Assembly (NCBI GenBank): GCA_913031205.1
Contig: CAJWEM010000001.1
Coordinates: 96,723 to 140,990 of the forward strand
From: an uncultured Gammaproteobacteria bacterium
GTDB taxonomy: Bacteria > Pseudomonadota > Gammaproteobacteria > Poriferisulfidales > GCA-002705445
Direction: 5' to 3'
Length of the DNA: 44,268 nucleotides
A model generated the notes under the pieces. The model saw only the letters and a list, made by a program, of their open reading frames with translations, had not been told where the DNA came from and searched no databases. The translations under genes were made by a program, and so were the position numbers. Below are positions 37,424 through 43,146 of the stretch, one piece after another (position 1 is the first letter of the stretch; every line of letters starts with the position of its first letter).

Positions 37424-38738
37424 TACCAACTACCAGAGTAACAAGTGAATTAACATTAATTTCTTTCTTAAAAGCATTCATAATATCTTTTTTGGTAATT
37501 TTAGAAATTTCAGATGTAAAGGTTTTCAAATAGTCCTTCGATAAATCATAATAATTTATCATTGATAAATAATTTAAAATATCACTATTGCTATCAATTC
37601 TTAACGGGAAACCATTAATTATTGAATTTTTTGCATGCTTAAGCTCATCATCTGTAGGTCCTTTTTTTATAAATTCAGCAAGCATCTCTTGGATTAATTT
37701 TACAGATTTTTGTGCTTGATCTGCTTTTGTTTCGATACCGATTAAAAACGGGCCCTCTTCTCTTAAGGGATAAACATAACTATAAACCCCGTAAGTTAAT
37801 CCTCTTTTAACACGAAGTTCTTGCATTAATCTGGCGCTAAAGCCACTTCCCCCAAAAATATAATTTCCAACGTATAAAGGAAGGTGGTTTTCTGAGCCCC
37901 TTCTAATTGAAACTAATCCAATATATATGTGTGCCTGTTCAGAATTAAAATTTTTAAAAATGTACTTCTCTTTTTTACTAATAGTTTTTGTTTGTTTTGT
38001 AATTACCTTTTTCTTTGATTTATCTAAGGATTTAGAAATTTTTTCAGCAATAGCTATAACCTCTTTTTTTGAAAGTGAGGATACAATGGCGATTGATGCA
38101 TTTTTTGCATTTATATTTTTATCATAAAAATCTTTAATATTTTTTCTACTAATTTTTTTCACGGAATCCGCATATCCAATGGAAGGATGTGAATACGGGT
38201 GGTCTCCGTAGATCTCTTTAAAGAACAAATTGGAAGCAATTTCGCTCGGGTCGCTTTGATCTTCAATAATTGTTGATATTGTTCTTTTCTTTTGCAGGTT
38301 AACCTCATTATTGGGGAAAGAACTATCTGATAAAATTTCCAAGAACATTTTCAAAGAGGGATTTAGATATTTTTCCTGTGTTAGTGATCTTAGAGATATA
38401 GATGATCTATCTTTATTAACTGATGTATTAAATATTGATCCGTTTGATTCAAATATCGAGGCAATCTCTTCTGATTTTCTCACAGATGTCCCTTCATCAA
38501 GTAAACTGTGAGTTAACATAGATAGTCCCTTTGTATCTCCATCTCTATTTGAGCCGGCATCAAAGGTTATCTTGATGTCAATCATAGGAATATTGTCAGA
38601 CTTAGAAAACAAAACCTTAATTCCATTTTTTGTTTCGTAAGAAGAAATATTTACATCAGCTTTTGTTATGTTTGTGATACTCATAATTATTATAAAGAAT
38701 GTAATTTTATGTAAATAAAAAATTCTACTTTTCATCAT
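37404..38738 (-). CDS. M16 peptidase family protein, non-catalytic subunit
   Basis: A 444-residue exported M16 protein with a signal peptide (basic start, hydrophobic segment, TKA-DVN). At the metal site the usual HxxEH is missing: the segment reads GLSMLTHSLLDEGTS. Conserved M16 core blocks remain, such as the ARLMQELRVKRGLTYGVYSY region. It pairs with the HxxEH protein encoded just upstream, whose end it overlaps by 14 nt. This matches M16B heterodimers in which one subunit is catalytic and the other helps bind substrate. Periplasmic. Confidence 0.9.
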   Translation of the reverse strand: MMKSRIFYLHKITFFIIIMSITNITKADVNISSYETKNGIKVLFSKSDNIPMIDIKITFDAGSNRDGDTKGLSMLTHSLLDEGTSVRKSEEIASIFESNGSIFNTSVNKDRSSISLRSLTQEKYLNPSLKMFLEILSDSSFPNNEVNLQKKRTISTIIEDQSDPSEIASNLFFKEIYGDHPYSHPSIGYADSVKKISRKNIKDFYDKNINAKNASIAIVSSLSKKEVIAIAEKISKSLDKSKKKVITKQTKTISKKEKYIFKNFNSEQAHIYIGLVSIRRGSENHLPLYVGNYIFGGSGFSARLMQELRVKRGLTYGVYSYVYPLREEGPFLIGIETKADQAQKSVKLIQEMLAEFIKKGPTDDELKHAKNSIINGFPLRIDSNSDILNYLSMINYYDLSKDYLKTFTSEISKITKKDIMNAFKKEINVNSLVTLVVGNAKAKK

Positions 38739-40077
38739 TTACAGTAACGATTGTTTTTGATTTAAATACTAAATACTTTTTGGCTACTTCCCTAACCTGT
38801 TTAGCTGTGACCTTATTAATGTTTTTAGTATATTCTTCTATAAGACTAATGTCGCCAATTGAAGTTTTTAACATACCTAAAATTCTAGCCTGGTAGTCAA
38901 TTGAATCTCTTTGGTAAACTTCTGTCGCAAGAACTTGAGCCTTTATCCTATCAAGCTCACTCTGTTTTACTAGATTTTTCTTCAAATCTTCTATAATTTT
39001 TTCAAGCTCTCTTCGAATTTTATCTGTTTTTTCTCCAACGATTGGGTTTATATCAATTAAAAATAATGGGTCATTTCTTGAGAACATTGAATAACCAGAA
39101 TCAGCATAACTAGCAACTTTCTTTTCCCTAACTAATATTTTTTGTAACCTGGAATTTTGCCCGCTACTCAAAATACCTGAAAGCACTGATAACGCATAAC
39201 AATCAGAAGGATCAACGTCCTTTGAATTTAAACTTGGTACTTTGTACCCCATTATAATATATGATGGTTTACCTTGAATTTGAATTGACACTTCCTTTTT
39301 GCCAAATTGTGGTGGCTCATCCCTAATAATTCTGTCTTCAATTTTAACTTTTTTCTTTGAACCATAATACTTTTTCACGAGTTTCATCGTTTTTTCAAAA
39401 TTAATGTCACCTACAATTACTACAGTTGCATTATTTGGGGCATACCAATTTTTATACCAATTTGATATGTCTACTTCAGTCATACTATTTAAATCTTCCA
39501 TCCAGCCGATAATCGGATCATGATATGAACTATTATTATAAGCACTTGCATATAGCTGTTCATACGCAATACCCTCAGGTTGGTCGTCAGTTCTTAACCT
39601 TCTCTCTTCTTTTATAACTTCAATTTCCTTCAAAAAATCACTTTTGCTAATAACAAGATTATTCATTCTGTCTGATTCAAACTTAAGTGCTTCTTCTAGG
39701 TATTGAGAGGGTAAAGTTTGATAATATGCTGTGTAGTCTTTACTTGTGAATGCGTTTTCTTTACCACCAAGTTTTGAGATGGCCTGCGAAAAAACTCCTC
39801 CGGGATACTTCTTTGTACCTTTGAACATCATGTGTTCAAGAGCATGTGATAAACCCGTTTTACCACTAATCTCATCTGCAGAGCCAATTTTATACCAGAT
39901 ATGGCTTGTAACAACTGGTGCTCTCGTATCTTTTTTTAAAATTATATGAAGCCCATTATCTAATGTTTTTTCCATAACCTCAGCCCTCGAATATGGCGTT
40001 AGAAATAAAGTTAATAATACGAAAACATTTACGCCAACTAAAAAATTCGTAATGTTTTTTTTTAAAAAACGATTCAA
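38725..40077 (-). CDS. M16 zinc metallopeptidase, catalytic subunit
   Basis: A 450-residue insulinase-family protease. The HxxEH site is HALEH in KTGLSHALEHMMFKGTKKYP, with the distal zinc glutamate in the EALKFESDRMNNL helix. The start is TTG 40077, needed to include the signal peptide (LVGVNVFVLLTLFLTPYSRA-EV); the next in-frame ATG lies after it. AGG sits 7 nt upstream. Probably a periplasmic oligopeptidase with the inactive partner downstream. It diverges from rpoH. Confidence 0.92.
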   Translation of the reverse strand: MNRFLKKNITNFLVGVNVFVLLTLFLTPYSRAEVMEKTLDNGLHIILKKDTRAPVVTSHIWYKIGSADEISGKTGLSHALEHMMFKGTKKYPGGVFSQAISKLGGKENAFTSKDYTAYYQTLPSQYLEEALKFESDRMNNLVISKSDFLKEIEVIKEERRLRTDDQPEGIAYEQLYASAYNNSSYHDPIIGWMEDLNSMTEVDISNWYKNWYAPNNATVVIVGDINFEKTMKLVKKYYGSKKKVKIEDRIIRDEPPQFGKKEVSIQIQGKPSYIIMGYKVPSLNSKDVDPSDCYALSVLSGILSSGQNSRLQKILVREKKVASYADSGYSMFSRNDPLFLIDINPIVGEKTDKIRRELEKIIEDLKKNLVKQSELDRIKAQVLATEVYQRDSIDYQARILGMLKTSIGDISLIEEYTKNINKVTAKQVREVAKKYLVFKSKTIVTVNDEK

Positions 40078-40324
40078 AATTCTACCTATAAATATCTAAA
40101 GTGAAATATAATATAATACTAGCATAAAAGGTTTCTTTATTAAGGTATACACTTTTTGCCGATCCACAAATTTGTTGGTGATTAATAAGTTTTTCAATAT
40201 CACATCTTTATTTACACGTAGCTATCAACTATATGAAAAATGTCTCTTTATCTGGCATTTAAAACATTATATAATTATTCAATTATATTTAAACTATTGT
40301 TTTTAAACAATTTTTCAGATAGCA

Positions 40325-40352
40325 TTGCTTATAATTAGCACTCTTGTATAAT
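40325..40352 (+). promoter_or_regulatory. sigma-70 promoter of rpoH
   Basis: TTGCTT (40325-40330), a 16-nt spacer and a perfect TATAAT (40347-40352). The -10 sits in the central spacer of the CIRCE element, so HrcA bound there would block RNA polymerase. Transcription would begin inside the right CIRCE arm, about 32 nt before the rpoH ATG. Confidence 0.6.
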
Positions 40353-40361
40353 GAGTGCTAA
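40335..40361. promoter_or_regulatory. CIRCE element (HrcA operator) upstream of rpoH
   Basis: TTAGCACTC (40335-40343), nine bases, then GAGTGCTAA (40353-40361). This matches the canonical CIRCE inverted repeat at all 18 arm positions and with the exact N9 spacer. CIRCE is the binding site of HrcA, the heat-shock repressor usually found before groESL or hrcA-grpE-dnaK. Here it covers the rpoH promoter and ends 30 nt before the ATG. Confidence 0.9.
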
Positions 40362-40391
40362 TAAAACTTTTATTTGTTGGAATTGGATTTA

Positions 40392-41231
40392 ATGGCTAAA
40401 CAAATTGATTATAAACATTCATCGCTGCCTTCTTGTACGGGAAGTATAGACACATACATAAGTCATGTTATGGCTATACCTGTTCTGTCAACAGAAGAAG
40501 AAGTTAATTTAGGGTATAAACTCCAAAGTTCCAATGACTTAGAATCTGCAAAGAAGTTAATCATGCATAACCTAAGATACGTTGTGTATATTGCAAAAAG
40601 CTATTCTGGTTACGGGTTAAATTTAAATGATTTAATTCAAGAAGGAAATGTGGGATTAATGAAAGCAGTTAAAAAATATAATCCGGAGAAGAATTTAAAA
40701 CTTATAACTTTTGCGGTTTATTGGATAAAGTCAGAAATTCATGAATTTGTTCTTAAAAATTGGAAGATAGTAAAAGTAGCTACTACAAAAACTCAGAGGA
40801 AGTTATTCTTTAATTTAAGATCAAAAAAGAACTCCTTATCTTCTCTTACAAACCAAGAAGCCCAATCAATTGCAAGTGACCTAAAAGTTCCTGTTAAGGA
40901 TGTCATAGAAATGGAAAAAAGAATGCTTAACTTTGATTTGGCTATAGATGAAACAGATAGCGAAGAACAAACTGCGCCACAAGTTTATCTTGAAAGTAAT
41001 GAAATGAAACCTGACGAAGCTTTAGAATATGAAGAAAATAGTAAGATAAATAAAAAGCTATACAGTGTCTTAGAGAATCTTGATCACAGAAGCAGGGATA
41101 TTGTTGAAAGTAGATGGCTAGCTGAGGAAAAGCTAACTCTTGAAGATTTGTCTAAGAAATATGGAATCTCTAGAGAGAGAGTCAGACAGATTGAAACTGA
41201 GTCTATGTCTAAGCTTAAGGAAAATCTTTAA
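40392..41231 (+). CDS. rpoH: RNA polymerase heat-shock sigma factor (sigma-32)
   Basis: Directs transcription of chaperone and protease genes. The 279 residues carry region 2 (NLRYVVYIAKSYSGYGLNLNDLIQEGNVGLMKAVKKYNPEKNLKLITFAVYWIKSEIHEFVL, split by family position), the RpoH box region TQRKLFFNLRSKK that marks sigma-32 apart from RpoD and RpoS, and region 4 (LTLEDLSKKYGISRERVRQIE). ATG 40392 matches the MAKQ-type family start. It is transcribed behind a CIRCE element, linking the HrcA and sigma-32 systems. The stop shares TTAA with ctaB. Confidence 0.95.
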   Translation: MAKQIDYKHSSLPSCTGSIDTYISHVMAIPVLSTEEEVNLGYKLQSSNDLESAKKLIMHNLRYVVYIAKSYSGYGLNLNDLIQEGNVGLMKAVKKYNPEKNLKLITFAVYWIKSEIHEFVLKNWKIVKVATTKTQRKLFFNLRSKKNSLSSLTNQEAQSIASDLKVPVKDVIEMEKRMLNFDLAIDETDSEEQTAPQVYLESNEMKPDEALEYEENSKINKKLYSVLENLDHRSRDIVESRWLAEEKLTLEDLSKKYGISRERVRQIETESMSKLKENL

Positions 41232-42112
41232 AAATTTAACAGTAACACTAAGTACCTATCTGCTAATAGAAAACCAAATAATGCTGAAAGATAAATAATA
41301 GAATAATCAAATATTTTATTGGCCAAATAGTTATTTTTAGAATATTGCATTTTTAAAACGTAATACAAAAAGAATAAATTCAAAAGTAAAGCACCCGTTA
41401 AATAAAAATAGCTTGAGAACTTTATAATAAATGGCATTAAACTTACAATTGTTAGCATAAAGGTATAAAGAGTTATATGTACTCTTGTATATTGTTCTCC
41501 ATGTGTAACAGGTAACATTGGAATCTTTGCAGCAAAGTATTCTTCTTTTCTATAAAGCGCTAATGCCCAAAAGTGTGGTGGGGTCCAAAAAAATATTATT
41601 AGGAATAAAATAATTGCTATTGAATCTACTTGCCCAGTCATTGCAGTCCAGCCTAGCAGAGGTGGCGTAGCTCCAGCAGCACCGCCAATAACAATATTTT
41701 GTGGGGTTCTTCTCTTTAAATACAAAGTGTAAATAAACGCATATCCAACTAAAGAAGCAAAAGTTAACCAAGCTGTTAAGGTATTTATAAGAAAATATAA
41801 AAGTAAAAATCCTATCAAGGCAAGTACAACAGCATAAATTACAACGTTTTTTGGGGCAAGAACACCCATGACTAGCGGCCTTCTCTTTGTTCTAAGCATT
41901 ATGCTATCAATCTTTTGATCTAGTAATTGATTTATTGACCCTGCAGATAATGACATTAGAGCAATGCCAAGGTTACCAATTATAAGTACTTCAAAATTTA
42001 ACGCTAATGGATTTGCTAGAAGCATTCCAATAAATGATGTAAATATCATTAAAGCAACAACTTTTGGTTTTGAGGATTCTATGTATGCTTTAAAGTTATT
42101 TTTTTCAAACAT
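41228..42112 (-). CDS. ctaB: protoheme IX farnesyltransferase
   Basis: A UbiA-family integral membrane enzyme (294 residues, about eight or nine helices) that makes heme O from heme B. The prenyl-diphosphate site NQLLDQKIDSIMLRTKRRP and the later GGAAGATPPLLGW segment with YRKEEYFAAKIPM are diagnostic of CyoE/CtaB. It follows ctaA by 5 nt in the oxidase-assembly operon, so CtaB is the fitting name. Its stop shares TTAA with rpoH. Confidence 0.95.
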   Translation of the reverse strand: MFEKNNFKAYIESSKPKVVALMIFTSFIGMLLANPLALNFEVLIIGNLGIALMSLSAGSINQLLDQKIDSIMLRTKRRPLVMGVLAPKNVVIYAVVLALIGFLLLYFLINTLTAWLTFASLVGYAFIYTLYLKRRTPQNIVIGGAAGATPPLLGWTAMTGQVDSIAIILFLIIFFWTPPHFWALALYRKEEYFAAKIPMLPVTHGEQYTRVHITLYTFMLTIVSLMPFIIKFSSYFYLTGALLLNLFFLYYVLKMQYSKNNYLANKIFDYSIIYLSALFGFLLADRYLVLLLNF

Positions 42113-42117
42113 TTTAA

Positions 42118-43146
42118 TTATGTATTATTTTTTATACCCTTAATGAAAAATAATTGTGTTACTAAACACATTAATAAAAGAGCAGCATTTCCATTATGAG
42201 CAACAGCAACTAATATTGGTAAACCTAATTTAATATTTAATACCCCTAATAAAACTTGAGTACCTAAAAATAGTACCAATAAGAGAGACAAAATTTTCTG
42301 GTACATAGAATTAATCGTGAAATAAGAAAATATTGATAAAAGTAAAACCATAATTGTTGCAAATATTGCCCAAGCTCTGTGCGTAAAATGTATTGCAACT
42401 CTAGCTGGAGTATCAAGCCTTCCAAATTCGTAATTTAAGTCCGTTGCAAGTTCAACTATAAATGCATTATAAAAGTCCATTTGTGGCCACCATGAATTAT
42501 TACATCGAGGAAAGTCAGCACAGGCGAGAGCGGCGTAATTTGTGCTCGTCCAACCTCCAAGCATTATTTGTATAATCAAAACTGACAAAGTTGCAAAAGC
42601 GAAAGCCTGAAGTCTTTTAATTTTTATCATTGAAATGTTAAAGTTATTGTTGGTAATCTCTCCAAAATATGTTGATTTATTATTTCTTAAAAAAATTAAC
42701 CATAGCAATGCAATAATTGTTAAGCCACCAACTAAATGTAACATTACGATTAGGGGTTGTAGTTGTAATGTTACTGTAAACATCCCCAAAGCAGCTTGAA
42801 AAATTACTAAAACTGATACTAAAAGAGAAATTCCTAAAAGTTTGCTCGCATTGTTTTTATAAAATATGAATGAAATGATAAAGATAAAAATTCCAAGGAA
42901 TCCTGCTAAATATCGATGCACCATTTCTTTCCATGCTTTTGCTATATCGACAATTGACCCTTCATATGTACTTTCTGCACTTGCAATCTCTGCAGCATTA
43001 TCTGGAACACCAACAAGGAAACCGTAACAGCCTGGCCAATCTGGACATCCCAGTCCTGCATGGGAAAGTCTAACATATGCACCTAAAGTGATTACGGTAA
43101 ATGTAATAGAGATGACGAATAATAAATAATAGTTAAGTTTTGTCAT
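42118..43146 (-). CDS. ctaA: heme A synthase
   Basis: Converts heme O to heme A for aa3-type cytochrome oxidase. A 342-residue COX15/CtaA protein with about eight helices. It has GAYVRLSHAGLGCPDWPGCYG near the N-terminus, the heme-binding histidines in MVHRYLAG, MLHLVGG, FTHRAWA and AVAHNGNAAL, and a second CADFPRC pair in the middle. AAGGC lies 5 nt before the ATG. Its position between the SCO-like gene and ctaB supports the assignment. Confidence 0.95.
   Translation of the reverse strand: MTKLNYYLLFVISITFTVITLGAYVRLSHAGLGCPDWPGCYGFLVGVPDNAAEIASAESTYEGSIVDIAKAWKEMVHRYLAGFLGIFIFIISFIFYKNNASKLLGISLLVSVLVIFQAALGMFTVTLQLQPLIVMLHLVGGLTIIALLWLIFLRNNKSTYFGEITNNNFNISMIKIKRLQAFAFATLSVLIIQIMLGGWTSTNYAALACADFPRCNNSWWPQMDFYNAFIVELATDLNYEFGRLDTPARVAIHFTHRAWAIFATIMVLLLSIFSYFTINSMYQKILSLLLVLFLGTQVLLGVLNIKLGLPILVAVAHNGNAALLLMCLVTQLFFIKGIKNNT

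Follow-up and report, generated by a model that had tools for sequence, protein, structure and literature searches.

Does the repressor HrcA stand above the activator of the heat-shock response, sigma-32, in the bacterium from which this DNA comes? HrcA repression and sigma-32 activation are described in textbooks as alternative or parallel heat-shock systems. A sequence-only reading of the present stretch of 44,268 nucleotides (the window) had found a perfect CIRCE element, the operator of HrcA, over the promoter of the sigma-32 gene rpoH, and had proposed a cascade in which loss of HrcA activity on heat turns on rpoH. Here we describe the locus, the distribution of the operator among related genomes, and the explanations that compete for it.

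Operator and promoter upstream of rpoH

The features of the locus were as follows.

38725-40077, minus strand: gene for an M16-type peptidase (YfmH-like), divergent neighbour of rpoH; sub-threshold family match
40078-40391, no strand: intergenic region of 314 bp between the M16 peptidase gene and rpoH, from the ORF map
40325-40330, plus strand: candidate -35 box TTGCTT, read directly, 16 bp from the -10 box
40335-40361, no strand: CIRCE operator, TTAGCACTC-N9-GAGTGCTAA, with 0 mismatches in 18, 30 bp 5' of the rpoH ATG
40347-40352, plus strand: sigma-70-type -10 box TATAAT, read directly, within the 9-nt CIRCE spacer
40358-40361, plus strand: expected transcription start zone, placed 6-9 nt past the -10 box from the position of that box
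40392-41231, plus strand: rpoH, heat-shock sigma factor sigma-32, 279 aa (TIGR02392, PRK06596, sigma-70 regions 2 and 4)
41228-42112, minus strand: cyoE/ctaB, heme o synthase gene, convergent neighbour (TIGR01473, 308.8 bits)

RpoH was identified by scores of 338.3 bits against TIGR02392 (cut-off 323.1) and 354.7 bits against PRK06596 (cut-off 241), and the RpoH-box motif QRKLFFNLR was present in the translation of 40392-41231. Translation might alternatively begin at an in-frame TTG at 40374. According to the ORF map, rpoH is a lone gene with its own promoter.

The repeat at 40335-40361 reads TTAGCACTC-TTGTATAAT-GAGTGCTAA on the plus strand and is a perfect CIRCE, with agreement at 18/18 arm bases. 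It was the sole match in the window even when up to three mismatches were allowed, a threshold at which dinucleotide shuffles gave a mean of 0.01 matches. The sequence-only reading was therefore correct in describing a perfect CIRCE over the rpoH promoter, and the -10 box that it had placed inside the spacer was read at 40347-40352. For this TATAAT, no -35 candidate other than TTGCTT at 40325-40330 was found; TTGCTT is weak as a -35 in this genome, and the promoter at 40325-40352 was not reported by a consensus scanner. With the predicted start at 40358-40361, just after the -10 box, the CIRCE hairpin is expected to lie outside the rpoH mRNA. The predicted 5' start of the mRNA was about as structured as its shuffles (z 0.30, for a single fold of a single sequence), so that a thermometer like that of E. 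coli is not evident in the rpoH leader by this one fold, and a search of 38000-42200 against Rfam matched no family.

HrcA, its predicted targets and conservation in the family

The genome to which the window belongs comprises 908 kb in 30 contigs and is 93.6% complete. It belongs to the Gammaproteobacteria in the broad sense, since other genomes of its class coincide with named records; G203, for example, agrees with the Thiohalobacter record L150 at identical coordinates. A search for hrcA elsewhere in it, suggested with the original proposal, revealed an intact gene upstream of grpE and dnaK, with an ORF of 347 aa matching PF01628 (E 3.3e-64). When up to two mismatches were allowed, the genome contained two CIRCEs, both perfect, one before groES-groEL (G000:C16:11552) and the other before rpoH. 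A CIRCE-like site with three mismatches (C17:4838), near the join of a HAD-like gene and a downstream ORF, was dismissed as a chance match. At hrcA-grpE-dnaK, no CIRCE was found in the 12 family genomes, the best matches there having 6-8 mismatches and being regarded as noise.

The dnaK and grpE genes are preceded by putative sigma-32 sites, judged against the reference layout CTTGAAA-N13-15-CCCCATnT. Upstream of dnaK the site resembles this layout as CTTGAAA-N13-CCTCAT, and upstream of grpE, inside the 3' end of hrcA, as CTTGAAA-N13-CCATA (both in L004, G000:C4). Such CTTGA-N-CC sites preceded both genes in nearly all of the 12 genomes of the family, although the sequence around them had diverged. 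The pattern CTTGAA-N13-16-CCYCAT had four matches genome-wide against 0 in a reversed control, and the dnaK site was the sole intergenic one of the four; the strict pattern TTGAA-N-CCCCAT, with four matches against three in the reversed control, was uninformative. The sequence CCCCC before hrcA was considered as a sigma-32 -10 element and rejected, as it reads instead as the Shine-Dalgarno sequence of a divergent nadK-like gene.

Alignment of rpoH upstream regions within the family covered 11 regions from 10 genomes, including the window's own; one genome contributed two copies, probably through assembly redundancy. The repeat was kept in all close relatives in which rpoH could be located, as the proposal required: all 10 genomes of the genus or family with an rpoH had CIRCE, and its spacer contained the -10 box in each. 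Across the 11 regions a single arm base was altered, in one genome only; the -10 box TATAAT was invariant (11/11), as were the first three bases (TTG) of the -35 box, and most of the flanking sequence had diverged. The -35 position was occupied by TTGATA, TTGAAA, TTGATT or TTGCTT in the congeners. Neither hrcA nor a CIRCE at rpoH was found in two other families of the same order (f2 and f3).

In two genomes of the same genus (G007 and G009), one of them 98% complete, no RpoH reached the cut-off and a true cyoE was likewise absent. Loss of rpoH was considered for these genomes and was not adopted, the best cyoE match being a weak paralogue (23-25%) and an assembly gap being as likely as loss.

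Distribution and promoter layout of CIRCE-rpoH loci

A small survey of 55 relatives provided 50 readable rpoH upstream regions, in which CIRCE preceded rpoH in 28 of the 31 with hrcA and in 3 of the 19 without it (p 1.5e-7, from counts that ignore phylogeny). In the three hrcA-negative genomes with CIRCE at rpoH (G024, G035 and G052), two of which are incomplete (62 and 86%), the absence of hrcA is likely due to missing assembly; G169, a congener of G035, carries both hrcA and CIRCE-rpoH. A stricter, exact-match pattern, composed of the CIRCE core, 254-284 bases and an rpoH coding motif, matched 108 of 370 genomes of the class, with zero matches in the reversed control. It was present in 105/277 genomes with hrcA and 3/93 without (p 1e-12, the counts again ignoring phylogeny), and the former value is a lower bound because the pattern misses variants. 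The distance from CIRCE to the rpoH coding motif was nearly constant, at 250-280 bp in most families and 334 in one. In named genomes the stricter pattern matched at least 119 stretches, and among the matches listed were Methylocaldum, Nitrosomonas, Thiodiazotropha, Pseudoalteromonas, Dyella, Rheinheimera, Thioalkalivibrio and Aromatoleum, as well as a zetaproteobacterium, Geobacteraceae and Desulfuromonadaceae, the groups being beta-, gamma-, zeta- and delta-proteobacteria. CIRCE-rpoH thus appears to track hrcA across the class, a comparison that supports the claim of an HrcA system above sigma-32.

The HrcA/CIRCE regulon of the Bacillus subtilis type (groESL, hrcA-grpE-dnaK) shares with the window's genome the exact operator consensus with its 9-bp spacer, the hrcA gene, groESL under CIRCE and an operator over the core promoter. 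It differs in that hrcA-grpE-dnaK is here without CIRCE and the second target is rpoH. In Table 8 of Rodionov et al. 2004 (PMC545781), a perfect CIRCE was predicted before rpoH of Geobacter sulfurreducens; groESL is described there as the constant HrcA target. The likeness lies in the perfect CIRCE shortly 5' of rpoH together with that at groESL, whereas in G. sulfurreducens, which belongs to another class, hrcA-grpE-dnaK-dnaJ carries CIRCE too, and the table is without promoter geometry. In the literature passages on CIRCE with rpoH, taken as excerpts, CIRCE at rpoH was reported only in this source (PMC545781). The sequence-only reading, which set rpoH against the usual CIRCE targets, needs correction on this point: the arrangement is widespread in Beta- and Gammaproteobacteria and had been predicted in G. 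sulfurreducens. The main prior survey of HrcA regulons in the beta, gamma and epsilon groups is reportedly that of Permina and Gelfand 2003.

The layout of the promoter varies around this operator. Outside the window's family, CIRCE continues at its right edge into TAnnnT in 121 of 129 loci (TAAAAT in 55, TAATAT in 21), which forms a sigma-70-type -10 box at CIRCE positions 25-30. The window's family has not kept this right-edge hexamer, and its TATAAT stands 12 bp upstream, at CIRCE positions 13-18. Thiodiazotropha, Pseudoalteromonas, Dyella, Nitrosomonas and Aromatoleum, among others, have the same operator at a near-constant distance to rpoH, but with TAAAAT or TAATAT at the right edge of CIRCE, often with a sigma-E-like -35 upstream, and not TATAAT in the spacer. 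One zetaproteobacterium (L180, JAJRTF010000091.1) has TATAAT in the CIRCE spacer at rpoH (ATATAATGA), as in the window's family; in so distant a group, this possibly arose independently.

Most of the other loci also carry GAAC[TC], mostly as GGAACTT, starting 14-16 bp 5' of CIRCE. The motif was present at -22 to -8 in 88 of 128 loci. An equally wide control stretch had it in 6, and none of 200 shuffles gave more than 10. About 16 bases past the motif, TCTAA, TCAAA or TCTCA was found at the junction of CIRCE arm and spacer. Loci L117, L125 and L150 (Thiohalobacter) are examples with GGAACTT about 15 bp 5' of CIRCE and TCnAA at the junction. The consensus layout of sigma-E promoters is GGAACTT-N16-TCnAA, and the rpoH region of E. 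coli carries several sigma-70 promoters and the sigma-E-dependent P3, so that GGAACTT beside CIRCE in many relatives resembles sigma-E control of rpoH. Among genomes with CIRCE-rpoH, the sigma-E-like motif was found in 12/17 with rpoE over the cut-off and in 0/14 without (p 9e-5); when the window's family was counted once, it was found in 0/5 families without rpoE over the cut-off (p 0.0096). Unlike E. coli, none of the 12 genomes of the window's family scores above the cut-off for RpoE, and the sigma-E-like motif is missing too, GAACY being absent within 26 bp 5' of CIRCE; only a sigma-70-type promoter lies under the operator. Given the positions of motif and -10 box, HrcA would cover sigma-E-like and sigma-70-like promoters together in most lineages, and the window's family appears to keep only the sigma-70 version, placed differently.

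The proposed circuit and its alternatives

From these comparisons, 40335-40361 is very probably a genuine HrcA operator at which HrcA directly represses transcription of rpoH. HrcA folds with the help of GroEL and holds its operator, and is freed when GroEL is busy; we infer binding, repression and release on heat at rpoH from this established biology. At normal temperature, an HrcA dimer on 40335-40361 would cover the -10 box and the spacer between the -35 and -10 boxes and would exclude RNA polymerase. Unfolded protein occupying GroEL, or heat inactivating HrcA, would cause its release, upon which groESL and rpoH would be transcribed together. RpoH would then drive genes that have sigma-32 promoters and no CIRCE, here grpE and dnaK, and rising GroEL would restore HrcA and close the loop. 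The sigma-32-like promoters at grpE and dnaK, where CIRCE is absent, also support the cascade as it was first proposed. The contrast then drawn with E. coli is real, but it is expected because E. coli, used as a control of the hrcA profile search, gives no HrcA match.

HrcA might bind at this site and still matter little, if mRNA structure, chaperone sequestration and proteolysis set the level of RpoH and CIRCE trims basal transcription. Sigma-32 of E. coli is controlled chiefly after transcription, the RpoH of the window is an ordinary family member by profile scores, and post-transcriptional control may outweigh transcription. In the single fold of the predicted mRNA start, however, structure did not exceed that of shuffles (z 0.30), so that no thermometer is evident from it, and the operator is among the best-kept upstream parts across deep divergence. 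We consider such a minor role unlikely.

It is very improbable that the inverted repeat works at the RNA level, as a hairpin in the leader of rpoH that acts on mRNA stability or translation, and not as a DNA operator. A transcribed CIRCE can fold as RNA, and an RNA role has been proposed for it in Gram-positive bacteria, but the -10 box falls within the repeat in this genome and at the right edge of it in most relatives (TAnnnT, 121/129), so that transcripts from such promoters would not contain the complete repeat, which argues against this role; that the presence of CIRCE at rpoH follows the hrcA gene also speaks against it. We give just as little credence to a relict, in which an ancestral CIRCE that is no longer bound would persist by chance or through the overlapping promoter. 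The -10 box overlaps the spacer and the conservation is therefore partly promoter constraint, yet the outer and inner arm bases, which the -10 box does not need, are invariant except for one base in one genome, and the site is missing in families f2 and f3, in which the search for hrcA was negative as well.

With direct repression by HrcA as the preferred explanation, the window is best read as a lineage-specific variant of what appears to be a widespread and under-described HrcA-rpoH circuit. Less expected are the wide apparent distribution of CIRCE-rpoH, the presence of a sigma-E-like motif under it, and the position of the putative -10 box within the operator in a lineage that lacks rpoE. 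We lean slightly towards a broader history, in which HrcA repression of rpoH would be an old and general wiring of Beta- and Gammaproteobacteria, its operator lying over a composite sigma-E and sigma-70 promoter, with cytosolic folding stress (through HrcA) gating the input of envelope stress (through sigma-E). The E. coli type would then be derived, after loss of hrcA, and the streamlined lineage of the window would have dispensed with sigma-E and re-formed its rpoH promoter within the operator.

With the repressor above the sigma factor, both in this genome and in many hrcA-bearing genomes of the class, the two heat-shock systems would become one series circuit, and the E. coli scheme without HrcA would not extend to all Gammaproteobacteria. 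Through the sigma-E-like motif under CIRCE, three heat-shock inputs would converge on a single promoter, which would bear on the origin of the E. coli heat-shock network. The series circuit could be approached in cultured relatives, for example Pseudoalteromonas, Dyella or Nitrosomonas.

Two further arrangements were observed among the surveyed loci. In G029 (locus L022), a tandem pair of CIRCEs, 32 bp from start to start, lies 5' of one rpoH, and G051 has two rpoH copies, L246 (G051:C289) and L017 (G051:C325), with CIRCE at one only.
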